A DNA stretch of 64,000 nucleotides, taken from positions 103,371,235-103,435,234 of the forward strand of contig CM026426.1 of assembly GCA_014871385.1 (NCBI GenBank). Direction: 5' to 3'. Origin of the DNA: Ceratodon purpureus. Taxonomy: Eukaryota; Streptophyta; Bryopsida; Pseudoditrichales; Ditrichaceae. The translations under genes were made by a program, and so were the position numbers. Each line of letters begins with the position of its first letter. Position 1 is the first letter of the stretch. The notes beneath the pieces were generated by a model. It was not told the origin of the DNA and ran no database searches. It worked only from the letters and a program-made list of their open reading frames with translations. This document shows positions 27,111 through 58,700 of the stretch, piece after piece.

Positions 27111-27420
27111 ACCCAGGGACTGATGGCACCGAATGTCACTGACGATACCGCAGCAATGCCGCCTGTCTTATCAAATGCCAGGGAGCTTTCTAGCAACGAG
27201 GTCCAGCTTGCTCTACAAATGGAGGATACGGAGGTGGATTACAATGATGAGTCACCTCAGCAGGATTGTGCTATATAGAGAACCTTGGTCCATCATAGGA
27301 GTACTTACAAAGATCGCGCAGTCTAAATGAGAGTTACCTGGACTTGTGTAATGAAATCCAACAACATTACGAGTATAAGCATCGTTGGAATTAAAATGCA
27401 ACTCATTACCACATTGAGTA

Positions 27421-27715
27421 AAGAAAACTGTTCACATGACTATGTTACTTTGCAACTTTATTAACAATTTTAGTAATGCAAACTGTCCACATGACTATGT
27501 TACTTTGCAATCATTACCAATTAGAGTGAAGAAAATTGTCCACATGACTATGTTACTTTGGAACTTTATTACCACACTGAGTAAAGAAAACTGTCCACAT
27601 GACTATCTTACTTTGGAACTTTAGTAACAGTTCTAGTAGAGAAAATTGTCCACGTGACTATGTTACTTTGCAATCATTGCCAATTTTAGTAAAGAAAACT
27701 TGCGTCATGACTACA
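27421..27715. repeat. 53-56-bp minisatellite in CACTA subterminal region
   Basis: About five and a half units, each starting ACTGTCCACATGACTATG or a close variant, at about 27427, 27481, 27534, 27590, 27644 and (partial) 27697. The unit contains CACATGACTA, the same motif scattered up to the CACTA end at 31090. Confidence 0.75.
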
Positions 27716-32637: not shown

Positions 32638-32657
32638 TTAACCCCTTTAGGATGTTG
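32638..32657 (+). repeat. left TTAA target and piggyBac TIR
   Basis: TTAA then CCCCTTTAGGATGTTG. Just inside, TGGGT (32656-32660) and ACCCA (32666-32670) can form a short stem. The 12-bp subterminal repeat follows at 32725. Confidence 0.9.
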
Positions 32658-32736
32658 GGTGTCAAACCCAGAAACTGTACATGCTGTATTTTTTGACAAA
32701 GTTTGCATACAACAGTGAATTTGAGCACTTGGGTGA

Positions 32737-33927
32737 TTGAGTTTTGAAGTGATTTTTTTTTGAGACATAGAGGGTGAAGTGTGGAAAAGAAATATCAAAT
32801 TTAATTAAGAATCTAATATGTAGATAATTTTAGAGAAAATTCCAAGTAAGAGGGGGTGTCATGTGCTCTAAAATCAGTATCTGTAGAGGAAGAGAAGTAT
32901 TGTACAGGTGTTCAGAGTACAATTATTGGTCTGATCCAGAGATTCTCCGTCAGGGTTACTTTTTTTAGCCGGTTTTGGGGGGCAGTTGGTGACCTGTAAG
33001 ACCGGTCACTGCCAATGTGGTAGGTGACTGGAAAAACTGGGGGCCAATGGGGTGTGAGGTGTTGGATGTCACAAGACAATGGCGACCAACTGTCACAGCC
33101 CCCAGACTGCGGCATGGAGCGGTTACAAACATAGATCAGCAACTCAGAAAATGAAACTGACTAATACAAGTCCTTTGCCATAGATACGAACTTCATGCAC
33201 TCAGAGAACTCCCGGCCTATAAAGGCACATGCACTGTACTTGTAAACAATCAGCACCTTCTAAGATCACTGAACAGCAAGGAAATCAGACAACTATATGA
33301 ACAACTTCCACAGAAGAACCCTGCAATGTGAAAACACAAGAACTAAATAAACAATCCATTCACCAATAACCTATCAATGCTACAGACAGCAACTTCTCAA
33401 AATCCCCACTTTTCACTCACATACCCCAAACCCAGCCGAATGAAAAGCTACAAACTTCGCAAAACCGGAAAACGTGATGGAGACGGCGATGCAAGAATTA
33501 GAGCACCTCCTAGTCGAACAAGACTCCAAGAAAACTGTGAAGTCCAGCAGTATACTTGCAATTACACACAGAATGTACAAAGCATCAGCCCCCCAGCCCA
33601 ATCACGAACCCAAGTGCCAATGGTAACACTGATAAACCTACACAGGGTTCTTAAAAATTCAACAACAATGCCTGAAGCCGCTAACAAGAAGTTTCCAAAA
33701 AATTGCAAAGTGTCAACAACACAAGGAGCCAAATTCACATCATCCTAGTCCAGTATGAAGAAACGAAAGAAGTTTAGAAAATCCGTGTCTCCACAGCCCA
33801 AGGTCTGAACCGGTGCTCTCCTCCCCAGAGTCAGTAGAAGGTGGAAGCATAGTGTTTAGGGGGTGTACACGAGGTGTGAACACTAAGGAAACTGGGTAGA
33901 CTCCAATTGAAACAATGGACACAGACA
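32737..33927. other. piggyBac left arm, non-coding
   Basis: About 1.2 kb between the subterminal repeat and the B3 gene stop. It probably contains the B3 3' UTR. A plus-strand frame of 123 codons (33377-33748) is low-complexity and not convincing. A GGTGACxGT-rich piece near 32990-33080 with several GTGAC/GTCAC words may be a small inserted repeat. Confidence 0.4.
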
Positions 33928-35436
33928 TCAGACGAAGAGGTGGCTCCCGGGAATCTTCACTGAGACCTCGAAGGAGGCTGGTCCTGTCTTGGAGAAGAGG
34001 AGTGTATCCCCCAGCTTTAGCTCGTTCTTCTTGTAGAAGCTATACCAGCCTGAGGTGAAGAAGCAAAAGGTCTGCTTGGCGGTGACACATAGAGAGGCCT
34101 TGACAGGCATTTCGGCGATGGGGCCAGCCAGAGTGAAGAAGTGGTCATCGAATTGGTCGGTGCCGTACGTCCTCCAGTAGAGGGTAGGGATGTCCTGCGT
34201 AGGGGATAGAAGAAAGCATGTGTTAGTCCGGTAGAAGCTCATTATCAATTACAAAACAGTCTTCCCACACATACCAGAACCTGCGGAAAACAGACTACAT
34301 ATACCACCTCGAAAGCTGACCTCTATCTCCAAAAAATCAACAACAATTACTTCCGTAGCAACATTCCTACAAACTCTAATACAGCACTGAGTGCGAACAA
34401 GAACCAAAGGAAGGTCAGCAGTAACCCTAGGCCAAGATCACCTAAGTAGAGAAATCCACCTCCACAAGTACTAGCAATTTCACTTAGAGAACAACCAGAG
34501 CGACTGGAACTCCCCTCGAAGGTCACAGATCCACAGCAAGCCAAACAGAAGAGTTGGGAAAGTCTTACCAGCCTCGACCCGGTCCCTTTGTTGGTGTGGG
34601 AGGCTCGGAGGGTCTTGGAGAACGTTGGCACCCAAAGCTTCGCAGGGGCAGCGGCCGGAGCAGAGGTGGCGGCGGCCTCCACTGGCGAGTCCGATGTAGT
34701 CTTCGCAGGAGCCTTCGCCTTCGGCTCGCGATGGCGCTCGATTTGGACCGCGAGGGTGCAGTCGTCGGCTGGCTCGAAGGCTAGCAGATCTCCGATGGAG
34801 ATGTTGTTGTCCGCCACGAATTCGGCCCAGCCTCGGCCGATGCTGAAGGCCGTCATCCTCGACCCCGGCTCGAAGCGCTTGAGCTGCAGCGGCCAGGCCT
34901 TGGACCCCGTCATTGAGGTGAGAAGACGTACATCCAGGATCCCTGGCCAACCCGTCGCAGCTGTGAATTTCTTTGGAATTTCCTGCACAGGGCAAACCAT
35001 TGAGATTGCAGTCAGAAATCCCAAGGCGAATGAAAAAACAGAAGTGAATCTAATGTTTAGCTCTACATCACAACAAAAAGTTCAGAGGCCATCAACGATT
35101 CACCAAGCATAACTTTTACAGAGACGCCCTACTTCTCCGAGCTATGGCGGGCAGCGGCTAAGGCACTCTCTACAGGGGTCTTGGGTTCACGCCATGACTC
35201 CGGTCGCAACAACAGAAACCCTGACTCGCTAATTACATCGCAAAGGTCACTCAGTGTACGGCGCCTCTTGGTCCCGCTTACATCACTCTTTCATGGCTTA
35301 GGGTACTTACGATTCGGTGAAGATCCGTGGCGGACTCCACGCGAGTCGCGAAGAAAACCGCCCCGCAGTCGTCGAGCTCCCGGATCAGAGAGGGATATGC
35401 GTCGTCTTCCACCTCCCCCGGATTCACATCGGCCAT
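33928..35436 (-). CDS. two-domain B3 DNA-binding protein
   Basis: Three exons with good GT-AG junctions and consistent phase: 35436-35311 (ATG at 35436), 34982-34569 and 34194-33928, giving 268 aa. B3 domain 1 spans about residues 27-125: CGAVFFATRVESATDLHRI, then EIPKKF across the first intron, then SKAWPLQLKRFEPG, GRGWAEFVADNNISIGD and LLAFEP. A linker rich in Ala and Pro follows. B3 domain 2 spans about 160-268: PTFSKTLRASHTNKG, DIPTLYW, FTSGWYSFYKKNELKLGD and TLLFSKTG. Both show the IP..F/Y...GW..F...N.L..GD..LF pattern of REM-type plant B3 proteins, nuclear DNA-binding factors. No stop or frameshift is seen. The gene lies wholly inside the piggyBac, same strand as the transposase, so it travels with the element. 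Introns show it was taken from genomic DNA or is an original element gene. Confidence 0.8.
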
Positions 35437-35639
35437 GGCGGAGAGTGAGACGCGAGGCTGCACAATGCGAGGCAGGGCTGAGAGAAGGCGGGAGACAGAA
35501 AGAGGAGCTGGAGACAACAAGAAATCGAGAAGAGGAACGAAGGCGCAGCAGAGGGGCTATTGGGGAGGAGAAGTGCGGAATGGGGAAGAAGAACCCACCT
35601 GAAGAAAGGGAAATGCATCGCCCCCGCAGCCAAAATTCA
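35437..35639. promoter_or_regulatory. upstream region of the B3 gene
   Basis: GC-rich, purine-rich on the plus strand; probably the 5' UTR and core promoter of the B3 gene on the minus strand. No TATA box recognised. Overlapping short frames on both strands are low-complexity. Confidence 0.35.
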
Positions 35640-36760
35640 ATGCCGCGAGGGCTGCAACCGCCGTCGCCGAGTTATGGCCCCCCCGCAGCAAAGTACTGGT
35701 GACTGGGGGTGGGGACTGGGGACTGGGTGCGAATCACCAGCGTCTGCCCAATGCGGATCCTCCTGTGGTCTCCCCTCCTGAATCCTCTCCTCGACCGGCT
35801 CCGTGGCACCAATTTCAGCAAATGCATCATTAGCGTGAGGAACCCAGTCGGCTACAACGTTGTTGAGAGGTGCCTCGTCCTTCTCTTCCACGGGGGGGGG
35901 GCCTCCACCTCTGGAGCCGCGGCCACCTCCTCAGCTGCAGGAGCCGCTTCGGCCGGAGCAGCATGCTCCCGCTCCTCAACAATGGGAGCCTCCACACCCT
36001 CCGCTGGAGCAGCTGCGTCCTCCACAACTGGAGCTGCGGCTTCCTCAGCAGCTGCTGCCTCCACTACGGGGGCAGCGAATTCCCTGTCTTCGTCAATGGG
36101 GGCCTCGTCGGATGGGGCATCGGCCTCCTCCACAGCAGGGGCTGCCTCCTCCTCAGCAACCGGTGCCTCCTCAACCGGCGCTGCCACCTCCTTCTCCTCG
36201 ACCGCAGCGGCCTCCTCCGATGGAGCAGCTGCCTCCTCCACTACAGCCATAGCCTCCTCCGATGGCGCAGCAGAGTCCTCAGCAACAGCGGGTGCATCCT
36301 CCAATACTGCAGGTGCCTCCTCTACAGGGGCGGCCTCCTCCTTCTCTTCCAATGCAGGGGCGGCCTCCTCCTTCTCTTCCAATGCAGGGGCCTCCACCTC
36401 TGGAGCCGCGGCCACCGCCACAGCTGCAGGAACCTCTTCGGCCGGAGCAGCATGCTCCCGCTCCTCGACAATGGGAGCCTCAGCCTGCTCCGCTGGAGCA
36501 GCTGCCTCCTCCACAACTGGAGCTGCGGCCACAAATGCAGCTGGTGCCTCCACTACGGGGACAGCCAACTCCTTGTCCTCGTTGGTGGGGGCCTCGTCGG
36601 ATGGGGTAGCGGCCTCCTCCACAGCAGGCCGGGATGAATGTAAACTCGTTGATTCTCCATCTAATTTATACCTGTCCATGATTGTCCAAAGCTGCTTTCG
36701 TACATCTTGTGCCCTCCTCAATGACCGAGACTGCTCAAAGTTTTGAAAAGTTGAGCAAAC
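35640..36760 (-). pseudogene. PRP22 exon copy fused to Ala/Glu/Pro/Val-rich ORF
   Basis: Minus-strand frame 36721-35852 starts [20 protein letters not shown], a second copy of PRP22 helicase sequence found intact at about 37420-37480. It then runs for about 250 residues in repeats such as EEAAAPVEEAP, EREHAAP and ALEEKEEAAP. Against the other copy, about 105 bp of PRP22 sequence is missing between the GAATGTAAACT-GTTGATTCTCC part and the CATCTAATTTATACC part. A run of ten G at about 35891-35900 shifts the frame; beyond it another frame continues EEKDEAPLNNVVADWVPHAN to about 35640. The complementary strand is open for 345 codons, a by-product of the repeated composition. No known function; it could be a real acidic linker protein or a chance product. 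Confidence 0.4.
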
Positions 36761-37036
36761 GAGCTGCTACAACTGCTATAGTCGTTACTGTGCACTAATG
36801 ATCTCCACAGTATGTGCAGTGACGCACCAGGTCAAAAAAATGAAAAACATTTGGTGATGCTGTAAGCTCATGGTCGTCAAGCCTTCATGCAGCAAAGACT
36901 CGGCAGGTCAGAGAAGTCACCGCAACTGCTGATGCCAGGTTCTGCTTCATGTCATTCTTCCCCAACCTCTCTAAGGAATCATAAAGTTCGCCTCCATCCA
37001 GTACAAGGACTCCAGGGAGAAACTTGGCCTAAGAAC
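36761..37036. other. spacer between the PRP22 pieces
   Basis: About 275 bp. The minus strand near 36960-37020 (KFLPGVLVLDGGELYDSLER-like reading) resembles coding sequence but I cannot place it. Confidence 0.3.
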
Positions 37037-38177
37037 TCAAGCCCATCTTTTACTAAGACGCCATGAATTTGGCTCATGGTACCGATCATACAGAGGTTCA
37101 ATTCGCTCCTGTCGTTTTCTCTTGCTCATTTTTGTGGGATCAGCAACTTTGAAGAAACGCGGAGCCAATTCGACTAACCATTTGGGGTCCATCAGAGTCA
37201 CTTCTCGCATATACTCCTTCGTGGTCATAACTAACTCGTGATAGATAACCCAATCAGGTTGCCTCTGAAATAGAGCACTGTTGGGATGAATGTAAACTGG
37301 TTGATTCTCCACCAGAGTACGGTAGCCCTCCTGAGGATCCTTCCGCGCTGCATGAAAGAAAAACCCTGCTGCTATTGCTTTTCGTATCCGTGTAAAGTTC
37401 TTTCCCGCACTCACCACATCTAATTTATACCTGTCCATGATTGTCAAAAGCTGCTTTCGCACATCTTGTGCCCTCCTCAATGACCGAGACTGCACAAAAT
37501 TCTCAAAACACCAAGGACCTGAGAAGTTCTTCGCCTTCCAAGCTTCATAAACTGCCAGTAATGTCAAATGATCACCCTCTACTTGGAAAAACTTGGCCCT
37601 TTTCTGATCAGCCTGTGCTTGTTTCTCCCGTGGTCGGTAAAAGATATTCTGAGCTTGCAACATAGAAATAATGGTCAAAATTTCGTCGCTGCACCCCAAG
37701 TCTACACTGGCGAGAAGCATCTTAGACAGAGGCGGCTCTAGCGGAAACTCTGCCATCTTCCTTCCAAGCTTCGTCAGAAGACCTTCCTCGTCCAGGGCTC
37801 CAAGGCTGTATAGCTGTTCCATAGCAGAAATAAGTGCTTGGGGTGGAGGGGGGTCCATGAAATCAAAGGATAGAAGGTCGTTGATTCCCATTGCTTTCAT
37901 TGTCAATGTTGTCAAACCCAGATTAACCCTTTGAATTTCTGGGACTGTTGTAGGCAACATCTCATTCCGATAGGCACTTTCAGTGTACAACCGGTAGCAC
38001 TTGCCAGGTCCTGTTCTTCCTGCACGTCCAGGTCGTTGCCTTGCAGAGGCCTGTGATATAGGCGTGATCACCAAAGAGTCTAAGCCTAACTTTGGGTTGT
38101 AAACGTTCTGCTTCGCAAATCCAGGATCCACGACGTAGTATATTCCATCAATCGTGAGAGAAGCCTCAGCAATATTC
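37037..38177 (-). pseudogene. PRP22/DHX8 DEAH-box helicase, C-terminal third
   Basis: An open minus-strand frame of about 380 codons, intronless. It starts inside the helicase core at [20 protein letters not shown] (motif V region). Motif VI reads [10 protein letters not shown], where most DEAH helicases have QRxGRAGR. It then runs through the HA2 (winged-helix/ratchet) region ([20 protein letters not shown]) and the OB-fold region ([27 protein letters not shown]), ending with [20 protein letters not shown] and a normal-looking C-terminus. PRP22 releases spliced mRNA from the spliceosome. Full proteins are about 1,100-1,200 aa, so motifs I-IV are absent and this cannot be an active helicase. 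It lies in the piggyBac, joined at about 38178 to a GH3 piece across a 17-bp tandem duplication. Confidence 0.8.
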
Positions 38178-38211
38178 ACATGAACTAGTTTCCAACATGA
38201 ACTAGTTTCCA

Positions 38212-39440
38212 ACATGGCCACAAAGCTAGGAAACAATCACTGCCTTCACACATGCGTTGTACCATGTCAAGACCAGCGTGGATGCCAGCATACACAGAAT
38301 ACGTGTAGTTGGCTCCGGGGGGATCGGTGATGAGGTCGATGCCCATATAGTCCGAGATTATGAAGCCTTTGAATCCCAGCTCCTTCTTCAGCACACGGGT
38401 GAGCAGGAACTTGTTGCGTGCATTTTGACGCCATTCCAGTTGCTGTACGAGGCCATGACGGTCGCCACGCCCTTCCGGACGGCGTCCTTGTATGCCTTCA
38501 TGTGGATGTTCACCAGCACCCGTCGCAGCTCACTTGGGTGTTATTCCCGTTGAGTCCTCTGGTCGTGCCTCCGTCGCCCACGAAGTGCCTCGCACACGCA
38601 GCCACCTTGTCACTGCACCGCGGTTGCAGGAGTAGTACTCACATGATGAGAGCCTGAAAGCTTCGTTCAACCCATATTTCGCTAGTTATGTTGGAATAGT
38701 ACAAAGAGGCTCTTGTGGAGCGTACCTATCCTCGCACACGCAGCCACCTTGTCGCACGCAGCCACCAGTTTCTGGCATGGGATCTTCCCATCCCATCCAG
38801 CGGGCGCCCTGCCTTGCAACCCGTCGATCAGAGATGTCATGTCGCGCACGATTTCTGGATCCTCACTGTAACTCTCGTAGCATCGCCCCCACCTAGGATC
38901 CCGACATACCTGACAAACATCAAGCGTCATCTCTCCTCTAAATTTTCCGAATCCTTTTCAGAATTCTCGATAACGCAGTACATGTAACATAAACATCTGC
39001 AAATCCACTTCAACATAAACATCTGCAAATCCAGACTCAAACATCCCTCAAGATCAGGAGAGAAATTTAGAAAAGGCGAGGGAAGGAAAAAATAAAAAAT
39101 AAAAAATCAGACACAGCATGCTGTCCCACAGAGCCATGCGTCGACAAGCTTTTTCCAAAACCTGGCGATCAGTTGTGTAAATTGCGGAAGGCAGACCTGG
39201 TGCACCCGAGGCCGACATTGTGGGGGAAGATGGTAGCACCGTAGATGTTGTTGTTGCCATGCACGGCATCAATCCCGTAAATGAGAGGGCTGGCAAGGCG
39301 AGTGTTCGTCGCTGCTTTCTGGAAGTAGTTAGTCATGTTGCCCCATTGCAACCCAGTTGCATTCTCGACTGGACCACTGCCTCCCCCGCTCAGTATACTC
39401 CCTGCAGTCACGGCTCTCTGCAACGAACCATCAGGGTTCT
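38212..39440 (-). pseudogene. GH3 beta-glucosidase gene fragment
   Basis: Minus strand, exons in collinear order. First (about 39440-39195): GPVENATGLQWGNMTNYFQ and SPLIYGIDAVHGNNNIYGAT. Second (from 38909, after a clear TTTGTCAG acceptor): [20 protein letters not shown] and [18 protein letters not shown]. Third (about 38620-38212): [19 protein letters not shown], then after a frameshift [20 protein letters not shown]-like sequence and ELGFKGFIISDYMGIDLI, where the Asp of SDY is the GH3 nucleophile. Introns are kept, so capture was from genomic DNA. GH3 enzymes of plants are secreted exo-glucosidases or xylosidases; N- and C-terminal parts are missing here. It is sandwiched between two PRP22 pieces. 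Confidence 0.75.
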
Positions 39441-40000
39441 TCACAATCTTCAGCGGAGACACATCAACAGAATAACGAGTCTGACCCCGAAGAAAAGCCG
39501 GCTCATCTTCATGCAGCTCAATCTCGAGCTCCTCCTCGGCACCTTCATCATGATACAGCATTCCTCCCCCATCGTCATCATACAGCGGATAGTCCTTAAC
39601 GCCCAGCACACCCGACGCAATCTGGTGCTTCGCCTCCCACCGCTCAGTAGAGCTCATCCTCTTCCTCGGTCTCCGATGCGACGTATTCACATGCTCTTCC
39701 ACAATAGAAATCCCCGACAGCCCCTTCCGCATCTCCGGCGCCAAGCTATTGATTCCAAGGATTCGCACGCAAATTCTCCTCCTCCCCTGTCGTCCGCTTC
39801 ATAGGCAACAAATCCTCCCCTGTCTTCTGATCCACATCCCGCATACTAAGACTAATCTTCTTCTCGCTCACAGACAACACCTTCACCCAAACCTCCAGCC
39901 ACGGCTCTTACAGAGCACCCTGTTACGTTACAAAGCCGGCCAAGTAGACCTTCAGCATGTGAAGATCGCACGTAAATCCCATGCTCACAAACTGAAACAA
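39441..40000 (-). pseudogene. PRP22/DHX8 N-terminal part (S1 domain end and linker)
   Basis: Minus-strand readings give KVLSVSEKKISLSMRDVDQ and DLLPMKRTTGEEENLRAN (about 39770-39900). This is the end of the S1 RNA-binding domain and following region of PRP22. Then come STERWEAKHQIASGVLGVKD, EGAEEELEIELHEDEPAFL and QTRYSVDVSPLKIVKNPDGS (about 39450-39700), the linker before the helicase core. The order is right, but at least one frame change occurs near 39770 and the S1 start is degraded. Around 39440 the PRP22 reading passes directly into GH3 sequence in an open frame, a chimeric junction. The piece is on the same strand as the PRP22 C-terminal third, with the helicase motifs I-IV replaced by GH3. 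Confidence 0.75.
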
Positions 40001-40389
40001 AGTTAGTAAATTATCATCAGGTCGGAAAACAAATGCCTTGGTTTAGATTAATGTAGAACATGCTTTACAAAATTACAGTCCATCACTGATGGGATCCCTA
40101 CAGCGACAACAGTACACGGCGAACTAAGTCCTCCTGAGTCTGGAATGTGGGCCAGAAGTGTGAAAAAAAAATTAGCAAAAAACAAAAAACAAAAAAAAGC
40201 CATGCCAAGGGCTGGCCACGAGCATCTTCAGCATGTGTGCCGCGCGGTTGGTGCTGAGTCGCCGGTCCTCTCAGGTCGCCTAGGAGTGCTGAACTTCCCA
40301 TTTCCTTGAATCGTCGCTGCAACAAGTGCATGAAGTTTCCCCTGTACCCGCAACGAAGCCACAAAGATTTCAGCATGTGGAAAACAGAG

Positions 40390-43300
40390 TTACCGCTTCT
40401 TCCGACTCAGCCGCTCATGAACAATGTGGTAGCAGCTCTGACGGCACATCCACTGGTTCCCACAGGCAGGACAGTACCACCGCCCAACATGGCCACATTC
40501 TACACATTTACGCTTCAAGGCAGAGTGCCAGTGGGAGTGGACGAGGACAGATTGGGGCTGTCGTGGAGGGGGGCAAGCAGCAGTGCGAGGTCTGGATGCA
40601 AGCCAATCAGCCACCAAGTGCTTCCCAACAGCGATCTTGAACTGCATGTGGGTTCTCATTTTCAACCCGAGACTCTCCATCCGTGAACAGTAGACAACAT
40701 ATGAATTGACCATGGTCTGGTCCACAATGAAGAAAAAGAGTTTGTGCCACCATTTGTGGCTTCGAAGCTGTGATGAATAGTTCGCACGGATTTGATCACC
40801 AACATCCACACCTCTCATGTATTCTTGATACTGGAGGAGAATAGGACTAGCAGGCACGATGAGTTGCCCCCGCATCCCTGGCACTCTTCGCAATACAACC
40901 AGTCCCGGCTCCCAGGGGCTCGCCGCGGTGCTCAAGAGGGTCACCAGGCACTTGTCCTGCCATGACACAACTCCCATGTGTCTATGGCTGTGCATACGAA
41001 TTAGCATGGAACCCCTTTCCTCTTCCTTCGTCTCCCGGTACAGACCATAGGGCAAGTTCTTACTTGCTCGCCTAACTGTACCAGTAGCCCACATGCCCGA
41101 ACACATGAGCTCGTGGAATAGGTTGACTGAAGCAAATAGGTTGTCTACCACTAAGCAGTGCCACCGGTGCTCAAGCCCCGCCACCAAGCGCATCACAACG
41201 TGGTATCCAAGCCCGTGCAAACCAAGACCCGTGCCTTCTCCGAAATACACTTCGATGTTGGATACAAACCTTGACTTCGAACTAGCTAGCACCCAGCACT
41301 TGATTCCAAACCTCACTGGTTTATCCTTCATGAACTGTCGAATAAAACAGTATTGCCCCTTGTACGGGATTACACATTCATCAACTGTTATCTCGCGTTC
41401 CAGGCTGTAAATTTCCTTCGACACCCTCACAAACATTTCTATCACCCAGCGCGTCTTCGCAATTCTGTCAAACCTTGGAGACTTCACGTCCCTGACCACC
41501 TCCCGGTTGTTCACCAAGTGCAGACACCTGAGCAGCTCCTCCCACCTAGCAAGGCTCATAATGCTGGAGATCAACGAACAGTAAACGAAGCCTTCGCTGC
41601 GCATCCAGTAGTGCCTGACGGAGGCCAATCTCTTCACTCCCATCAGTATACAAATCCCCAGCCATGCCCGGAGTTCAGGCACGGTTAGTTCCTTCCACCT
41701 TGGCCCCCCTCTCGTCCTCGCGTCGCCTGCTGCCCCGCTTCTCTCCCCCGCGTATCGGTTAGTCTCCTCGACTATCCTGGCAAGCGTTTCTGGAGTCCAA
41801 TACAGGTCGAAGACTTCTTCAGGCCTCGGCATGGAACTCGACCCTCCCTTGTACCCTGGCTCTGGGCCACAAAAATTCTCCCTACTCCCCATGAGGCTCA
41901 CTGTGTCTGCGCTCCAAGACTCTGGTCTGTAGAAAGCCTTCAGTTGATCCATGTCGAGGTGTCGCGGCAGGAAAGAGTTCTCAGTGCCGCACCAGTCCGT
42001 GAAATCCAGTGGTACAGGCCGTCTCGGGGGGACATAGTCGTGCTCATCTTCGTAATCACTTGGGATTTCGTCCTCGAATTCTGGGATCCACTCCTCCCCA
42101 GAGGAGAACGCGGCCTCGCACTGCTGCCCGTCTTCACCCCCACATCCAGCACCCTTCTCTTCATCATACATGTAGTTAGGGAGAGTCCTGCTCACCTGGG
42201 GGAAGACGCTGCGTGCTGTTGAATCCTGTGTCCCGTCTGGCACCTCCTCCTCCTCTGGCTCTGTGTACTCGTGAAGTGGGCGTGTTTTCCACCGCTCTCC
42301 CGCAGGTGCATGCTGTCCGACCCCCTCTATATCCCTGCCCAGTGCATTGCCAGCCACCGCCCCTGACCCCTGCCCCACATGTCCTGTGACCTGGTACGCC
42401 GCGGCCCCCATACCGAGTCTCCTCTTACTCCAGCCATAGCCATGGCCTCCCTCGCTCCCCTGCGCCCGCACCCCCTTCCCCGTGGCCATGCGCACGTCGG
42501 TGGCTGGAAAATGAAGCAAATCCCTGAACCCGCCCAGCTCGCAAACCACCATCAGCTTTTTAGTCTCCACATCCTCGTATTCCGCCACGACATCACCCAT
42601 TGTCCAAGACGGCGTCTCACCCGTGTGAAAAGAGTACTCGGAGAGGAACCTATTCGGGATGAGAACCGCCCATCCCGCATGCTGCAAATCCCACTCTCCA
42701 TAGCCAGACGCCACATCTCCTCGGGGATTACCTCCACGTATTGTCTCTTCTCCAACTCCTCTACCCCCTGTCAAGGGCGTTGTCGCAGTCCACACCGGCT
42801 CCTCGTAAACATGCTCTGAGAATTCCATGTTCATTGTGCCCATACTGTCGCACGTCTGTTGTGATTCGGGCGCCTGGTAGCACTGCAGCACATCCCAGAT
42901 GTCGGCATCAGCGTCCTCCTTCTCCTGCAGCTTGAAATCTAATGTCCTCCGTGCTCGTGTGGTTACTCCTACCCCCGGATTTGGCCTGATGATGGTCGGT
43001 GGCTTCCAATTGTTAGGCTTTCTTGGTTTTCCAGCCTTCCCCTTCCCCTTCTCCTCTTTCGTTAGCCTTTTCTTCCTCCGCCCTGCAACGATTTCACACA
43101 CAGTAGCCAATTAGTCCAGTGTGCAAACTAATTGCACAGTGCCCCTTTCATTGAGTCCCCGTCCCAGTGCTCCTTCCCCTGTCCCACCGCTCCTTCCCCT
43201 GCCCCACATTCTCCGCAGCCCCAGCTCATACATACAAATAATCTTCAAAAATCACATAAACTCTCACCTGCTTCCCTTGCCCTCGGCTGCACGCACTCCA

Positions 43301-45586
43301 CAACTCCGGCGATGTCCACATCTTCCTCGCCCGGTGCTGTGGCTTTCTTCTTCCCTCCCCGTGGCCCCCTCTTCACTGCCTCGGTGGGAATTCCCGCAGA
43401 AGGATCCCCTTGGGCGTCCTGAAGTACCCCCGGGACTTCCTTCCGCTTCCTGGCACCCCTCGGCTTCGGTGGAGGCTTCGCTCTGTCGTCTGCAACCGTC
43501 CCCTCCCCCTGTGGACCATCAACTTTAGCCTTCTCCCTCGGTCGGCGAGGCCTTGCCACCTTCGGCACTCCCTCCGCTGCCACATGTTCGCCCTCGTTTA
43601 TATTAGCCTGAATCGCTTTTTTGTTTCTTCTGCGCTGCTCCGGTGGCTTCCTCAAGCACACCGTTTCCTCTGCTCCCAAGGACCCCGTCTTCCCACTGTC
43701 TCCCGCCACAGGTCCTGCAGGGGCCTCCCCCTTCTTTTTCCTCCTCTGCCTTGGTTTCTTCTCGCTCGGTATGTCTCCCAATCCCCCCGGCACTGCAATC
43801 GCAGGTTGCTTTCGAGGGCGACCACGTCCCCTTTTCTGCGCCACCACCTCCACCTCGATACCCTTCAACTGCTGGCTGATCTCCACCACCTGCTACAAAC
43901 ACACCCCCAACATCCCCCACCCCCCCCACAGCACCTAAACCGTCAGCAATTTCTTACCAATCCAGCACTCGTGATAGATAACCCTGCTTGGGCCAACCTA
44001 AACTCCTACCAAGGCTCGGTTCCACAAACAATGACACATACAAAACTGAAAAATAACCGGATCCCCACACAATATCCCAATAAAAGGCAAGAAGACTGGA
44101 CATCTTCTCAATTCACATGGATTCACATGATTCTGGCTGTACAAGGAATAGTTTCGAACTGATTGACATTGTGTGCAAATAGATCCAAGTATATGCACAT
44201 CCCAGACCCAGTGGCTCACACACCCATTGCCTCCCCTCCAGAATAAGAGTAAACCACCCCCACACACAAGAGTCACACTCACACTGACTGAGCAGAGAGG
44301 CACGACCATAATTCCCAAACAGGAGAAGATTACTTCACGAATTCAGTGTAATTAGATTAGTGCTCCATACTGCCAAACCAAATTACCCAATCGCAGACAG
44401 CACAAAACTCACGCATCCAAATGTAAATGTTCACCCAGCGCATATATATGAGCGGGCTCAGCAGCTGATCCCGACAAGCACTGGGAGTCACCAATCAAAT
44501 GCAAGCTCACCAGCTGATGTCCATCTCGACATTGAGATCGACCAGCCATAACTAGAATGCACGATCAGTGAATGAGCAGTCAGAAATCACAACAAACAGC
44601 AGGCTGATCGAAAAGAGGCACAATGGTGTGAGAGTCTCAACACATGTGTGCAAACAGATCCAAGAGCATACCACAAGCATCCTTACTCTACATGGGTCCA
44701 GGGCTGTGCAAGAATTCAGACAACAAAATCCGCCACAAATTCTGCTCTACAGATGAGGAAAATTCAGACACAGCATACTCCAAGAAACCACAACGTCTGT
44801 ACAGCAAGGACGGCAACCAAGTTGACACATATGAATGTAACCTTCAATTCAACCCTAAACCACAGGGACTCACTGCTACATGTTCACAGAATCCGGATTC
44901 ACAGACTGTTCCCCTGCACATGGGGTAAAAGATACTGTGGACCGAAAAACGACCCTGATCCACCAACCCAACCCGAAAACCCTGATCTAAAAACCCCCAA
45001 ACATTGTACAACCCTAAAACCCATACTTACCTGCTCTTCGAAGAGTCTTACGCCCACCATGTCCGGCGTCACCCTCGCCATGGTGTGGGCTGGTGGCGCA
45101 GAATCCCCCACCACCATCGACTCCGGTGTCTGCATCTGATGCGCCCGCGCCAGCTTCTTCAACGACAACCTGGCGGTGGACTCCATACCTCCGGAAGTTG
45201 TGATTCTTCAAGAGCCTTGAAACAAAGTCGGGAAATTTTTGCCTCTCCTTCCAACCGAGTAGTCTCGCAGCATGCCGATACCACAAGTACCGAAGTCTCT
45301 CGCCCTCTTCAAACTGCCCTTTTCGAAACCAAGTCCTGGGTCGCGGCTCCGACAACAGCCGATCCGCTTCTAACAGCGCAATAATCTTGGAAGCTGTCGC
45401 CTCCGAACGCCCTTGCCCTATCAGCCAAGACCGCAGATACTCCACACCAACCTCCCTCTCCGAAATCTCAGACTTCGTGAGCGCCTCTTGGTTCTCCATC
45501 AAACAACAGATCCACAGCATCCAGCGTCCAGGCAATACCCTGAAGCCTCCCTCAATCACCCACCCCCACGCGGATTTCTGTGCCAT
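40390..45586 (-). CDS. piggyBac transposase with AT-hook, three exons
   Basis: Exons 45586-45170, 43889-43268 and 43082-40390 join in phase (donors CAG/GTTGTC and GCAG/GTGAGA, acceptors TAGCAG and TTGCAG) for 1,243 aa. Exon 1: unknown N-terminal domain (VEYLRSWLIGQGRSEATAS, WYRHAARLLGWKERQKF). Exon 2: basic, with the AT-hook KRGRGRPRK and more Arg/Lys-Pro clusters. Exon 3: an acidic region, then the DDE_Tnp_1_7-type domain with LRAWLGICILMGVKRL, REITVDECVIPYKG (Asp codon 41380-41382), HCLVVDNLFAS (Asp 41143-41145) and YMRGVDVGDQI (Asp 40804-40806; a further Asp 40795-40797), the DDD/D set. It ends in a Cys/His-rich domain (CVECG, YCPACG, CRQSCYH). Another donor at 45031 would be out of phase. 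Typical piggyBac transposases are about 600 aa. All motifs are present, so it may be active. Confidence 0.88.
43890..45169. other. first intron of the piggyBac transposase gene
   Basis: About 1.28 kb, rich in CA and CACAC on the plus strand. Short open frames on both strands only. A second possible donor (GCAG/GTAAGTATG at 45031) is a stronger consensus than the one used at 45170 but breaks phase with exon 2, so alternative splicing or an unseen exon is possible. Confidence 0.5.
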
Positions 45587-46094
45587 CGTCGCACACTGGA
45601 TACTCAAAAGCAATTCAATTCCCTCATTGAAGAGGCGATCACCGCCACTGCTAGCAATCTCTACTCCCTACCGTCATTTCAAGAATCAGCCCCATCGATT
45701 TGAGAGCTCCCTTCCCTGAACCCGAAAGCACACTCTTGAAGCCGAGGGAGGGAAGAGCTGTTGGATCCAATGCTCCCTGGTGCGAGAGCCTAGAGTAGGC
45801 TAACCGCTTTGTCACCTGTCGGACAGGTCATTTTCCCAGGATTGGAATACGAAGTGTCAGGAGATCCGATGCGTAGATTCAGGGGGACTGTTCACTGTGT
45901 ATCACAGGGAATACGTAGAATACGACATTTGAGGCTGTCCACAGGGCGCGTTTGATTTTTTTATTTAAAAAAAAAAATTCATTCATGATCCTCACCCAAG
46001 TGCCCACAATTTCTCTTTGGCACCAACATGCAAATACAATGAATAAGTGCCCTTAAACTACTGAATACAACAAGCCGCAGCCCATATGGGGCTG

Positions 46095-46114
46095 CAACAT
46101 CCTAAAGGGGTTAA
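46095..46114 (-). repeat. right piggyBac TIR and TTAA target
   Basis: CAACATCCTAAAGGGG then TTAA. Immediately inside, GCAGCCC (46077-46083) pairs with GGGCTGC (46089-46095) around a 5-base loop. The subterminal repeat lies at 45992-46003. Confidence 0.9.
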
Positions 46115-53963: not shown

Positions 53964-54346
53964 AACCAATATGTTAGTAGGGGTGTGAAAATAGATTGCT
54001 ACAAAGTGTGGGCAATGGACGCACTCTGGAAAGTGGTTAGTCTACTAAACTGGAATGAAATGTCTGTCGACCTGACTTTGGCTGAGGGCGATCCGGTCTA
54101 TTTGTAAGAACCACCGCTGAGTCAAGTGTCGAAAACTTTGGCAAAGTATCCTAAATCGCCTGAATTAACAAGGACATGATCTAGTCGTGTTGGAGCGACA
54201 AAGGATCTCCTTCCACAGTCTGACGGCGCTGGTTGTGGGAACTTAGGGAACGGCGCTACGCAGCCTACTTCATGGAGCTCCGACATCGCAATTCGTCGTC
54301 TTGCTTTGGAGTAGTCGTAGCGTGTAGGTTGGTGCACGGTTTTTCG
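53964..54346. promoter_or_regulatory. divergent promoter region of the CACTA genes
   Basis: About 380 bp between the start codons of the minus-strand companion gene and the plus-strand ORF at 54347. No clear TATA box. Nothing else seen. Confidence 0.35.
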
Positions 54347-55375
54347 ATGGAGCCAATGAGTCCGCAGACGATGCTCCGTGTTGGTCTATGCACGTTGGAT
54401 GATGAGGGTAATATTGTGAGTATCTGGAATTTCGGTGAGTGGGGGAGGGTTCTGAATGATATTGAGTCACCTGATGTCATGCAGAATTCGAATGCTGGAA
54501 TCCTGGATGTAGCAGAGGGGTTAAGAGTTGTTGCGGATCCGTCGACTGATGGGGATAATCGTTCTACTTCCAGAGACGTTGAAGTACAGCCGCTCGAGGA
54601 TATGCCGTCACAGGAGGGATCAGATGGGTTGGTCGACGAGTTAGTGGGTCCGGAAAATCTCCAAAACTCAGAGGGGGGAGGTACTCCAGAAAGGGTTCTT
54701 CGACACGTCCCCTTCAGCTCTCGTTTGAGAGATCTATTTTGCACACCCATCGACGTAGCAGATTTCATGACATCGCTTCCAAGACAGTCCCTGAATTTGC
54801 AATTCTGCAACGTAGATTCTGACGAGGATTTAAGAGTAGTTGAAGTGCCTACGACGGGTTGGATCGACCAGATGATGCCGAATAACTTGGAGCCCCTTCC
54901 TGATTCCGTACAAGATGTGATCTCACATATTCTAACGCATTCAGCATGCGCGAGTGTCGACGGCGGAGTTCTATCGAGCAATTCTCTGAGATGGAGCTGG
55001 GATCGTGATTGGTTGGAGATGGAAGGTATACCGCCTCTAGAGGAGCCAGTTGTGTGGAGGCAGGAGTTAGCCGGTTTGCCTGAACTCGAACGAGCAGAAA
55101 CGTATTTACCGAGGAGAAGTGAGAATGTAAAGTACCCAGCATGCGTCCACATCCAGCCACTCAAACATCCAGTAGACGTCGACGAAGACTTCTCGCGTCA
55201 ATGGGCGACTTGCATGGAAGTAGCGGTCACTTTGTTGCTTGTCCATGCAATGTGTTCCAGAGCGAACTTACCTGATTGCGTCTGCACAGAGCTGATAGAG
55301 ACGATTCTCGTGATATATGGCGCATCGGTTCTCGGTGATTGTCGATCCATTGCATCAGGAGAGAAAGTGGGGTAG
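54347..55375 (+). CDS. unknown 342-aa protein next to CACTA Tnp2
   Basis: An ATG at 54347 (MEPMSPQTMLRVGLCTLDDE); the frame is open upstream to 54233 without a better ATG. The product is acidic, with GNIVSIWNFGEWGRVL, a polar linker, FSSRLRDLFCTPIDVADFM, SLRWSWDRDWLEMEGIPPLE and a C-terminal hydrophobic segment (CMEVAVTLLLVHAMC). There is no known domain. It lies between the divergent companion gene and Tnp2, 380 bp before the Tnp2 start, and reads in the same direction. It could be a third gene of the CACTA element or an exon of a longer one. The open length argues against chance. Confidence 0.45.
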   Translation: MEPMSPQTMLRVGLCTLDDEGNIVSIWNFGEWGRVLNDIESPDVMQNSNAGILDVAEGLRVVADPSTDGDNRSTSRDVEVQPLEDMPSQEGSDGLVDELVGPENLQNSEGGGTPERVLRHVPFSSRLRDLFCTPIDVADFMTSLPRQSLNLQFCNVDSDEDLRVVEVPTTGWIDQMMPNNLEPLPDSVQDVISHILTHSACASVDGGVLSSNSLRWSWDRDWLEMEGIPPLEEPVVWRQELAGLPELERAETYLPRRSENVKYPACVHIQPLKHPVDVDEDFSRQWATCMEVAVTLLLVHAMCSRANLPDCVCTELIETILVIYGASVLGDCRSIASGEKVG

Positions 55376-55465
55376 CAAAATGAGCCAGACTAGGGTCTTA
55401 GGTTCTGGGCAGTTTTCAGTGTGATAGTGCTAGCGTGATCCTAAGTGACGTTACGAACTGGTACG

Positions 55466-55723
55466 ATGTACCACTTCGCAGTTCCGTCGACCGGAATCAC
55501 TAGGGGGTTGTTTGTTATTGTGGACATCGTCTACTGGAATTCCAAGAGAAATAAAAACAAAGAAGTGTTGCATTCCGGTCTACTTGCGGACTCCATAACT
55601 GACTTTCCGTCGTTGACACGTGTGGATGAAATATTGTACGTTGGCAAATTCTGTTACTATCCTGAGAACATTAATGAACCCATTCTTGATATGAATGCGT
55701 TCTCCTGGTTGAGTGAAGCGTGA
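55466..55723 (+). CDS. small unknown ORF before Tnp2
   Basis: An ATG at 55466 gives 85 aa (MYHFAVPSTGITRGLFVIVD to NAFSWLSEA). It contains DEILYVGKFCYYPENINEP, which looks like real protein, but no domain is known to me. It might be a second exon of the preceding ORF or an independent small protein. Confidence 0.3.
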   Translation: MYHFAVPSTGITRGLFVIVDIVYWNSKRNKNKEVLHSGLLADSITDFPSLTRVDEILYVGKFCYYPENINEPILDMNAFSWLSEA

Positions 55724-55754
55724 GTGCACAAGCATAGGTGAAGGTTTATGAGCC

Positions 55755-58700
55755 ATGGCATCCGTGCCAAGGTTGCCTCTTCGCGACAGCAGACGCAGGG
55801 AAGCGAGAGACTTAAAACTCAGCATGCGAGAAGAGATCGTCGCTCAAAGGCAGGGAGTAACGAAGAGGGTATGCCCCTGCAATATCTGCATGGGCGAGAA
55901 TTTTTCCATTAGGTTCAGAGCCGTCGTGAGGGAGCATCTCAAGCTGTACGGGAGACACCCATGGCGGAGAGGAAGCACAGAGGTGAGTGACCTCGATTTC
56001 CAATCTCTGCTCCTTTAGTCGTTTTATGTATCTCAAATTATTTGCTGGGTGTAAGTGCAATCGAGGGCCTCGCAATAATTTTGATCCTAGTTTGCTCTCT
56101 TCTCTGTCCGTTAGGGTTTCGAACAAGATGAGTCCGATGGAGAGTGGGATGCCGATATTGTCCAGGAATTCGGAGCAAGAGGAGGAGGGTATGGTAGGGA
56201 TGCTGCTCGGAGCTTGGACGACGGTGCCGATATGGAAGGGCTCGTACAACATACCTTCAATTTATATGATGACTTGGTCGGTAATGCCTTCGATGTCAGA
56301 GATGGGATAGACGTGCAGGACGACGCAGATGGTGAAAACATGGGAGTGGGGGGCGGTGCATCTGATAATCAGGATAGGCGGGGTGATGAGGCTGCCATGG
56401 ACCGGGAATTGCATGATGAACCAGATGTCGTAGCCGAAGAAGAGGCGATGGCAGATGACGATCTTCCGGCAATGGAGTCTGTTCGACCCACAGCGCAGGA
56501 GTTGTCAGAGGAATCAGCACGTACCCCCTTGTTTGCGGGTTCAGGGCTAACTCAATTGGGAGGTACTCTACTCTTACTCAACTGCCTGCGTACCCACGGT
56601 GCATCCAATACCTTGGTCAATGAAATCTTTTCTATATTATCGAAGAGTATGTTGCCTACTATAAACTCTTTGCCACAGAACGAATACCAGGCATCTAAAG
56701 TTCTTAAACAGCTTGGACTTGCATACGACACTATACACTGCTGCCCTAGTCCATCAACGTGTGTTCTATTCAGGGGAGAAGAGTTTAAAGACCTTGTTAG
56801 ATGCCCAAAGTGTGGAGCTGATAGATACAAGCAGGTTGGGAAATCAAGAGTTCCGATAAAGGTGCTACGACATTTTCCACTTATACCTCGCTTGCAAAGG
56901 ATGTATAGCACACCACTTCAAGCTAGTTTCATGACATGGCATTCAAGACACGTTAGTGATGATGGGGTGATGAGGGGAGCAGTGGATTCTTACCAATGGA
57001 AGTTTATAGATTGGAAGTATCAGCAAGAGTTTGCATTTGAGCCTAGAAATTTGAGATTAGGTTTGGCAACTGATGGCGTTAATCCTTTCTCGATCAAACG
57101 TAGTACATGGAGTACTTGGCCTGTTTTAATTATGAATTATAACCTCCCGCCCTGGATGACCACAAAAAAGCATTTTATAATGCTAAGTCTAATCATCCCG
57201 GGGAAGAGGTCAGTGACCGGCGATAATTTTGATGTGTACTTGCTGCCGTTACTTGAGGAGCTGCAAATTCTGTGGAATACCGGTGTACCGACAGCTGATG
57301 CTTCAATGTATCAGGGAAGTAGAATGTTTAACATGAAGGCCATCCTTATGTGGACCATCCATGACTTCCCCGCGTACGGGGTAGTGGCAGGCTGTGTCAC
57401 AAAAGGCTATAAGGGTTGTCCAGTTTGTAGATTAAATACAGTGTCCAGGCGATCTTTGTCCTTGAAAAAAAATGTCTATGATAACCACCATCGCCGATTC
57501 CTACCTGCCAATCATGCCTGGAGGAGCCGGAGGGCTGAGTTTGAAGGTGTGCCGGAAAACAGAGGACCTCCTGGGAAAATGACCGCTGATCAGATATTGC
57601 ACTGGGGACGACTCAGAGAGTCTTGGGTGGAACTCGGTGCGACTCCAGCGGCGTCTGATCCAGCCCGGCAGTCCGGAATCAAGAGGGTATGTGCCCTTTT
57701 CAGCTTACCTTACTGGAAGGTATGTGCCCTCGTCAAACCTTATTATGCAATCGGTATCATTCCACGTTTGTTTGTTTTTTAATACCCTTCACGTTAGGCC
57801 AGTGGGAGTTGATTTAGAAATCCGTGCGTAGTGGTTTGCAGAAAATGGCAAGATTTCCAAAGAGTATGCCGTTGATTCAGATTTAGATGGAAATCCCTGG
57901 TTAGTCCACTATTCCGCGATTGCTTCTTTCACCCACATACTCGTGATCGACAGGTTCGGCAGAGAAATGAAGACTTAGACGTCTCTTGATCCCATTATAT
58001 TTATGTACATGCTAATCGTTATCCATGGTATTCAGATTTCGCTTCTACGTTTTCAGTTCTGTCCTAGCCTGTCAAGCTATGCGTCGGCCCCATGATTATT
58101 ATTTTATTCCGTTTTTGTTGTTTAGTATATGCGTTCAAAGTGTCCGTTTTGTAGCAGATTTGTGAGTTATATTCTTGTGTAATTTTTTCCATTCTCTCCT
58201 TGTTAGACACTGAATTGTAGAGTGCTTGGCACTGAAAACGACTAATCGTGTAGGTTTTGCTCTCCATTTATTCACATAGTGCCATGAATTCTGACCTTGA
58301 GGCTGCAGACCATGCACCCGTCATTGTTAGTAAGTTTGTATAAATGCCGGGCTCTCGATATTATTTCAAGTGCCATCAGTTGGATGTTGCATTCGCAAGT
58401 AACCATACTGTGCAAAATGTTTTCGTTCATAGCGAGGGCATCCAGTGAGTTAAGGTAGTCTTTCGTTCCTAAGTTTTTAAATATATGTTTCCCTCGCAGA
58501 TAGGAAATTCGGATATGGTCGATTGTATGACGGAACGGTCCGTATGCTAGGGGTTGTCCACTGAGTGCAGTTACGTTACAGATAGTCAGTTTTAAGTCAT
58601 GATATGTCTTACATTACAAATCAGAGCATCCGATTTCCTACTGTGTCACTGAGTCCATTGAATTGTCCCGGTATTGCTTTAGCTAGTGAACCTCCTAAGT

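Follow-up and report, generated by a model that had tools for sequence, protein, structure and literature searches.

T. ni piggyBac and Myotis piggyBat have TTAA, short TIRs, and a DDD transposase, all of which are also found in an element at positions 32638 to 46114 of a stretch of Ceratodon purpureus DNA (the window; 64,000 nucleotides, N count of 0). Like this element, T. ni piggyBac has ends that are organized asymmetrically and contain internal repeats, and it also possesses a Cys-rich domain at the C terminus (PMC7351741, excerpt), where the predicted C. purpureus protein shows a Cys/His-rich tail. At 13.5 kb, the C. purpureus element is longer than that of T. ni, which measures 2,472 bp (PMC10803768, excerpt), and it has a 12-bp subterminal pair, whereas piggyBat is described as being without obvious repeated subterminal motifs (PMC11707139, excerpt). 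Unlike both transposons, it encodes more than 600 amino acids ahead of the catalytic domain and contains about 6 kb of host genes.

Two animal piggyBac elements with cargo are among the closest described systems. Pokey, a piggyBac of Daphnia, carries rDNA IGS and ITS2 repeats beside its transposase (PMC3849761, excerpt) and resembles the C. purpureus element in bearing host sequence next to the transposase. However, Pokey is an animal element, and its cargo is noncoding rDNA spacer on the upstream side of the transposase, whereas the cargo here is protein coding, lies beyond the transposase stop codon, and includes one intact gene. Teratorn of medaka, in which piggyBac and a herpesvirus have fused, measures 41 to 182 kb (PMC6431247, excerpt). 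It similarly combines a piggyBac-like transposase and TIRs around very large foreign cargo, but that cargo is a viral genome in a fish rather than host genes. In plants, grapevine MULE, CACTA, PIF, and hAT elements hold host gene sequence, including introns, between their TIRs (PMC2528002), and the soybean CACTA element Tgm-Express1 contains five gene fragments (PMC1947982). These transduplications share with the present element host gene sequence between TIRs, but they belong to other superfamilies, and the excerpts of both reports describe fragments. A table of fern repeats includes a PiggyBac row (PMC6890710, excerpt).

The left end of the element (32638 to 32657, plus strand) consists of TTAA (32638 to 32641) followed by the 16-bp TIR CCCCTTTAGGATGTTG (32642 to 32657), and the right end (46095 to 46114, minus strand) consists of a TIR (46095 to 46110) that is its exact complement at 16 of 16 bp, followed by TTAA (46111 to 46114). 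Inside these ends, the 12-bp subterminal repeat GCACTTGGGTGA occurs at 32725 to 32736 on the plus strand, 83 bp from the tip, and its complement occurs at 45992 to 46003 on the minus strand, 107 bp from the tip. By analytic calculation, chance would produce 0.002 perfect inverted pairs of 20 bp across 64 kb, and 0.001 of 12 bp when two subterminal stretches of 130 bp each are compared, which indicates that the TTAA-plus-TIR pair and the 12-bp pair are both well beyond chance. With two mismatches allowed, GCACTTGGGTGA is found at six further places in the 64-kb window. Beyond the TIR and the 12-mer, the two ends show no clear likeness (score of 22, a value reached in 5 of 100 plain shuffles and in 50 of 500 dinucleotide shuffles), so the sequence does not link both ends to one copy. 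Other piggyBac ends also depart from a CC[C/T]T start, which is treated here as a common feature of piggyBac rather than a defining one. This start has been termed a piggyBac hallmark (PMC2872659, excerpt); the TIR of the C. purpureus element starts with CCCC, fitting the CC[C/T]T of the superfamily at three of four positions and thus departing from it at one.

The G+C content is 0.521 within the element, compared with 0.370 (26.0 to 32.6 kb) and 0.393 (46.1 to 50.0 kb) outside, although the step is blurred on the left, where the 400 bp outside the TIR have values of 0.52 and 0.615. When the flanks were joined as an empty site, the longest open frame was 158 amino acids. Of 200 random joins, 84 gave a frame of at least that length, and the insertion site thus shows no sign of a disrupted gene. 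A Transposase_21/DUF4218 element is located near the piggyBac element and, together with the B3 gene and the match of GH3 to a plant protein, indirectly points to plant nuclear DNA.

The transposase gene adjoins the right end of the element and is predicted to comprise three minus-strand exons with GT-AG junctions, encoding about 1,156 amino acids and open throughout. In this model, exon 1 (45031 to 45186) starts with an ATG at 45186, exon 2 (43268 to 43889) is basic and contains GRGRPRK, which we take to be AT-hook-like, and exon 3 (40390 to 43082) encodes the catalytic domain with its DDD residues and a C-terminal Cys/His-rich stretch. The acceptor of exon 2 may be 43892 or 43889, giving 1,157 or 1,156 amino acids, respectively. 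The protein matched DDE_Tnp_1_7 (PF13843) at 5.7e-72, piggyBat (9c0f_C) at 1.5e-35, and T. ni piggyBac (6x67_C) at 1.9e-21, and three Asp residues (D827, D906, and D1019 in the spliced model) align with those of piggyBat and piggyBac. The Cys/His-rich tail had no separate domain match in the Pfam profile search. Exon 1 is overlapped by a 217-amino-acid open frame that is read in a different frame (45014 to 45667, minus strand) and matched nothing convincing (0.034 and 0.093 in Pfam; no match at 0.01 in a further search; best PDB E value, 0.64). Scans with the transposase yielded three pattern stretches in viral_contigs and four in genome_contigs, with no relatives among them, and a TIR 20-mer scan of viral_contigs returned none; neither is a plant collection. 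The perfect 16-bp TIRs with TTAA on both sides, the paired 12-bp subterminal repeats, and the complete DDD transposase of the original prediction were all recovered. It had also placed about 7.5 kb of B3, PRP22, and GH3 sequence in the interval that separates the transposase from the left TIR; this interval measures 7.7 kb to the transposase stop codon, and the recognizable cargo occupies about 6 kb of it (33928 to 39893).

Outward from the transposase, the cargo consists of the N-terminal part of PRP22, GH3, the C-terminal part of PRP22, a small PRP22 piece, a repeat, and B3. The PRP22, GH3, and B3 sequences, though not necessarily the repeat, all lie on the transposase strand. PRP22/DHX8 is present as two pieces in native order, with the helicase core absent and GH3 exons in between. 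Its C-terminal part (37037 to 38180, minus strand) is a single open reading frame running to the stop codon and was matched at 1.9e-200 over 381 residues, while the N-terminal part, from the end of the S1 domain to the prehelicase region (39403 to 39893, minus strand; outer limit approximate), contains one frame break and was matched at 7.2e-23 and 1.6e-6. The second small PRP22 piece (36631 to 36749, minus strand) shares 93% identity with the larger piece across 92 bp and lacks 105 nucleotides that the latter contains. GH3, for which barley ExoI was the best match (three pieces at 2.1e-26, 1e-16, and 2.3e-13), is represented by exon pieces at 38262 to 38910 on the minus strand, with intron-like remnants, frame breaks, and some exons missing, and by an exon at 39197 to 39402 on the same strand, which shares one open frame with PRP22 and has a donor-like AG|GT at its end. 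At the GH3/PRP22 joint, a 17-bp tandem duplication (38178 to 38216; 2.3 copies, 100%) is present. Such a duplication at a joint is a possible trace of error-prone joining. The repeat-rich stretch (35637 to 36628) contains two copies of about 269 bp that are 87% alike. Long open frames occur on either strand of it, the minus-strand reading being rich in Ala, Pro, and Glu.

The original prediction spoke of B3, PRP22, and GH3 sequence. PRP22 and GH3 are fragmentary, but B3 is an intact predicted gene of three exons with GT-AG introns, encoding 268 amino acids and two B3 domains. Exon 1 (35311 to 35436) starts at an ATG at 35436 and begins the first B3 domain, exon 2 (34569 to 34982) contains most of that domain, and exon 3 (33928 to 34194) contains the second B3 domain and the stop codon at 33928, all on the minus strand. 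Upstream of the ATG, the frame has an in-frame stop codon and no earlier Met, and the spliced gene matched PF02362 at 2.2e-18. The predicted B3 introns and the intron-like GH3 remnants indicate that DNA was captured rather than an RNA-derived retrocopy. The third-position G+C contents of B3 (0.751), the C-terminal part of PRP22 (0.464), and the transposase (0.636) differ, which is consistent with several sources.

Alternatively, two piggyBac copies could have inserted independently, leaving a truncated copy with the transposase on the right and, on the left, a left end that is solo or truncated. The host DNA between them, a normal B3 gene included, would then be resident, with no capture. A complete, intron-bearing B3 gene would be expected in such DNA; TIRs are common to members of a family, so matching ends need not mean one copy; and the boundary is blurred by GC-rich DNA that adjoins the left TIR on its outer side. 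In addition, a marginal 25-column match to the left end about 235 bp past the transposase stop codon could be a buried original left end. Its score of 28 was attained in none of 100 plain shuffles, in 5 of 500 dinucleotide shuffles, and in 2 of 90 host windows; the right end scores 27 in the same region, a value attained in 0 of 100, 10 of 500, and 2 of 90, respectively. However, this match is made up of 8 bases and then an A-rich stretch, and it does not extend to a TIR. Two insertions would also require both inner ends to have been lost, with both remaining TIRs perfect, and no further TIR copy was found at up to three mismatches anywhere in the window, including the interior of the element, where a second pair of piggyBac ends would have spoken against the original prediction. 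The shuffling of PRP22 and GH3 on the transposase strand would need an additional cause as well, and we consider two insertions unlikely.

Helitron, Pack-MULE, CACTA, and hAT elements are the known gene shufflers of plants, and the cargo might have been built by one of them, which later inserted into piggyBac. The minus strand has two weak Helitron-like 3' ends, compared with 0.4 expected for each strand, and the plus strand has none. These two ends and one 8-bp TIR with a 9-bp TSD (one mismatch) at 35141 to 36254 would fit such a carrier. However, the Helitron-like sites have 6-bp stems and fall in a transposase intron and inside GH3, and although six TIR-plus-TSD rows were obtained against 2.75 expected from block-wise mononucleotide shuffles (20 rounds), five of the six represent a single A/T run and the remaining one would interrupt the B3 gene. 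Apart from the piggyBac TIR, the interior has no inverted repeat of at least 18 bp with high complementarity. The scans, limited to Helitron 3' ends and to TIRs with TSDs longer than those of the CACTA, PIF, and Tc1 types, revealed no termini of a nested Helitron, MULE, or hAT element at the edges of the cargo; decayed ends could escape them. A nested carrier is therefore regarded as quite improbable, and a mis-assembly joining unrelated pieces is scarcely credible, as random mis-joins would not be expected to place perfect ends exactly at the outer limits or to yield a coherent strand and order.

The matching ends, the lack of an internal TIR, the open transposase, the genes on one strand, and the absence of a detected nested carrier best support a single element. 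We therefore favor, with a probability of roughly 70%, the reading that 32638 to 46114 is one 13.5-kb autonomous-looking piggyBac insertion whose interior was rebuilt from host genes by repair copying. Host-gene sequence with introns lies between its TIRs, which is one of the features of a gene-capturing DNA transposon (transduplication). This agrees with the original prediction of one piggyBac with host genes inside; piggyBac cargo as such has precedents in Pokey and Teratorn. We infer that both ends derive from one insertion and that the parent genes of the cargo are still present elsewhere. Under the single-insertion reading, a resident piggyBac copy would have been excised or broken, leaving a gap, and its repair may have copied ectopic templates by synthesis-dependent strand annealing with template switches before being closed by error-prone joining. 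Host DNA would thereby have been taken up from at least three loci, namely, PRP22, a GH3 beta-glucosidase, and a B3 transcription factor, in addition to the repeat. The PRP22 stretch probably came first, and GH3 sequence may then have invaded and replaced the PRP22 helicase core. Since its TIRs and transposase are intact, the enlarged element could still move and would have landed at the present TTAA.

Capture by cut-and-paste elements is already known, but the capture of several genes, including an intact one, by a plant piggyBac appears to be new. Among the matches listed in open-licence literature, the titles and opening parts of abstracts mention no plant piggyBac with captured genes, and the excerpts of PMC6710886, PMC10175614, and PMC10619864 contain nothing bearing on plant piggyBac gene capture. 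A plant piggyBac that takes up whole intron-bearing genes would add a further cut-and-paste superfamily to the plant exon shufflers MULE, CACTA, PIF, and hAT. The excision of piggyBac is footprint-free, and very large cargo is tolerated when piggyBac is used as a tool. Such an element would be a testable case of an intact transcription factor gene being moved seamlessly, and it bears on how a transposon that excises cleanly acquires filler DNA. It is a more doubtful proposition that the element represents a plant piggyBac family with a habit of remaking its interior out of host genes ("Pack-piggyBac"), one that in the present case mobilizes a complete, expressible B3 regulator. If so, the B3 gene would travel with its own 5' region and introns, and the family would spread working regulators and PRP22::GH3 exon chimeras.

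The putative piggyBac element begins with TTAA-CCCCTTTAGGATGTTG at positions 32638 to 32657, and the exact reverse complement of this sequence forms its right end at 46095 to 46114. A 12-bp subterminal repeat, inverted between the left and right ends, lies 83 bp in from the left tip and 107 bp in from the right one. The analytic chance expectations are 0.002 for a perfect 20-bp inverted pair per 64 kb and 0.001 for a 12-bp inverted pair within two subterminal stretches. The perfect TIRs, flanking TTAA, and paired 12-bp repeats of the original prediction are thus confirmed. A near-palindrome, CAGCCCCATATGGGCTG, occupies 46078 to 46094, immediately inside the right TIR, and is absent from the left end. 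According to the partial text of PMC7351741, Trichoplusia ni piggyBac likewise has asymmetric ends with internal repeats, and its palindromic site at bp 17 to 33, bound by its own Cys-rich domain, matches the near-palindrome in position.

The 906-amino-acid (aa) minus-strand frame near the right end (40390 to 43110) matched PF13843 (5.7e-72). In its alignments to piggyBat (1.5e-35) and T. ni piggyBac (1.9e-21), all three Asp residues line up. Two more exons were predicted upstream through GT-AG junctions, with the ATG at 45186, giving a predicted spliced transposase of 1,156 aa with no stop, so the complete DDD transposase claimed earlier stands as a prediction. A 217-aa open frame (45014 to 45667) overlaps transposase exon 1 in another reading frame; it had no convincing match in Pfam and PDB searches and is possibly a second gene of the element.

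The stretch from the transposase stop to the left end contains the recognizable cargo, with PRP22, GH3, and B3 all on the transposase strand. Outward from the transposase, the order is PRP22-N (the N-terminal-side PRP22/DHX8 piece), GH3, PRP22-C (the C-terminal-side piece), a small PRP22 piece, a repeat-rich stretch, and B3. PRP22-N covers human residues ~319 to 353 and 367 to 480 with one frame break. The GH3 exons, searched as three pieces, best matched barley beta-glucan exohydrolase ExoI and contain intron-like remnants and frame breaks, with some exons missing. PRP22-C covers residues ~836 to 1216 and is open to its stop (1.9e-200); no helicase core between the two PRP22 pieces was seen in the frames searched. 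The small second PRP22 piece has 93% identity over 92 bp and lacks 105 nt, and the repeat-rich stretch has open frames on both strands, with no Pfam match among the frames searched. Damage is uneven, with GH3 and PRP22-N broken and PRP22-C and B3 open; B3 would be either a late arrival or a gene retained by selection. A single 209-aa open frame (39169 to 39798) runs from PRP22 straight into the first GH3 exon, a ready-made exon chimera.

Two phase 0 introns (328 and 374 nt), each GTAAG...CAG, separate the B3 exons (35436 to 35311, 34982 to 34569, and 34194 to 33928). The spliced frame has 268 stop-free codons from its first ATG, and its protein scored 66.5 bits over two B3 stretches in Pfam, versus 32.5 and 28.8 bits for the unspliced exon frames, the latter below the cut-off of 30.1. 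PDB matches were weak (ARF1, 7.5e-4; At1g16640, 0.019). Based on the stop-free frame, the spliced two-domain score, and the introns, B3 looks like an entire gene that was copied from genomic DNA, neither a fragment nor a retrocopy. All three predicted host sequences are present between the ends, and the main correction is that B3 is a complete predicted gene.

The presence of introns indicates that the cargo was copied as DNA. Since the PRP22 parts flank GH3 and keep their native order, PRP22 was probably captured first and a break inside it then patched from GH3. The GH3/PRP22 joint carries a 17-bp tandem duplication, which slippage during error-prone joining can produce. The GC fraction at third codon positions is 0.464 in PRP22-C and 0.751 in B3, a difference that fits separate sources. 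The one-strand bias is no more than suggestive, the chance that four independent pieces all share the transposase strand being 1/16. Scanning was limited to Helitron 3' ends and to TIRs with target duplications of the MULE/hAT kind, and within that range no nested carrier was found at the cargo edges. Weak Helitron-like 3' ends numbered two on the minus and none on the plus strand (0.4 expected per strand), and six TIR and target-duplication rows were obtained versus 2.75 expected, five of them from one A/T run. An inverted-repeat scan found no long inner inverted repeats with good complementarity.

Matched perfect ends, the open transposase, the shared strand of all recognized genes, and the GC content (0.521 inside versus 0.370 and 0.393 outside) favor one element over 32638 to 46114, short of certainty. 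In a scan of the whole window allowing up to 4 mismatches, the TIR occurred without mismatch only at the two ends, three further places having 4, so at this sensitivity there is no second end pair inside. Several points leave room for doubt. Beyond the TIR and 12-bp repeat, the two ends are not clearly alike (score reached by 5/100 and 50/500 shuffles), GC-rich DNA lies directly outside the left TIR, and a complete B3 gene would be expected of resident DNA as well. A marginal 25-column match to the left end also lies ~235 bp beyond the transposase stop; its score of 28 was reached by 5/500 dinucleotide shuffles and 2/90 host windows, and the alignment ends without reaching a TIR.

Elsewhere in the window, a plus-strand CACTA-like element (54224 to 60614) matched Transposase_21 (7.9e-74) and DUF4218 (1e-34), with a DUF4216 match (9.2e-5) below its cut-off. 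A frame for an NLI-interacting-factor phosphatase (1546 to 2598), in which PF03031 matched twice, lies in a region containing a near-perfect (99.5%) 214-bp tandem duplication (1629 to 2055). A retrotransposon gag frame with a Pro/Tyr-rich start (4034 to 4966; PF03732, 6.2e-11) and a tandem array of ~54-bp period with copies 81 to 86% alike (27397 to 27713) were also observed.

The original prediction held that gene capture is not known as a habit of piggyBac. Among the matches listed (open-licence literature, titles and abstract starts), none reported a piggyBac of plants whose cargo comes from three or more protein-coding genes, one of them intact. A fern assembly has repeats annotated PiggyBac (PMC6890710, in part). 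In the partial texts of the sources, soybean Tgm-Express1 carries five gene fragments, likewise host gene sequence as transposon cargo (PMC1947982); Pokey is a piggyBac whose host-derived cargo is rDNA spacer repeats (PMC3849761); Teratorn is a piggyBac fused with a herpesvirus, whereas the cargo here is host genes (PMC6431247); and a transduplicate origin was suggested, unproven, for coral piggyBac MITEs (PMC2872659). Because of these precedents, the mechanism class and host-derived cargo in animal piggyBac elements are already known.
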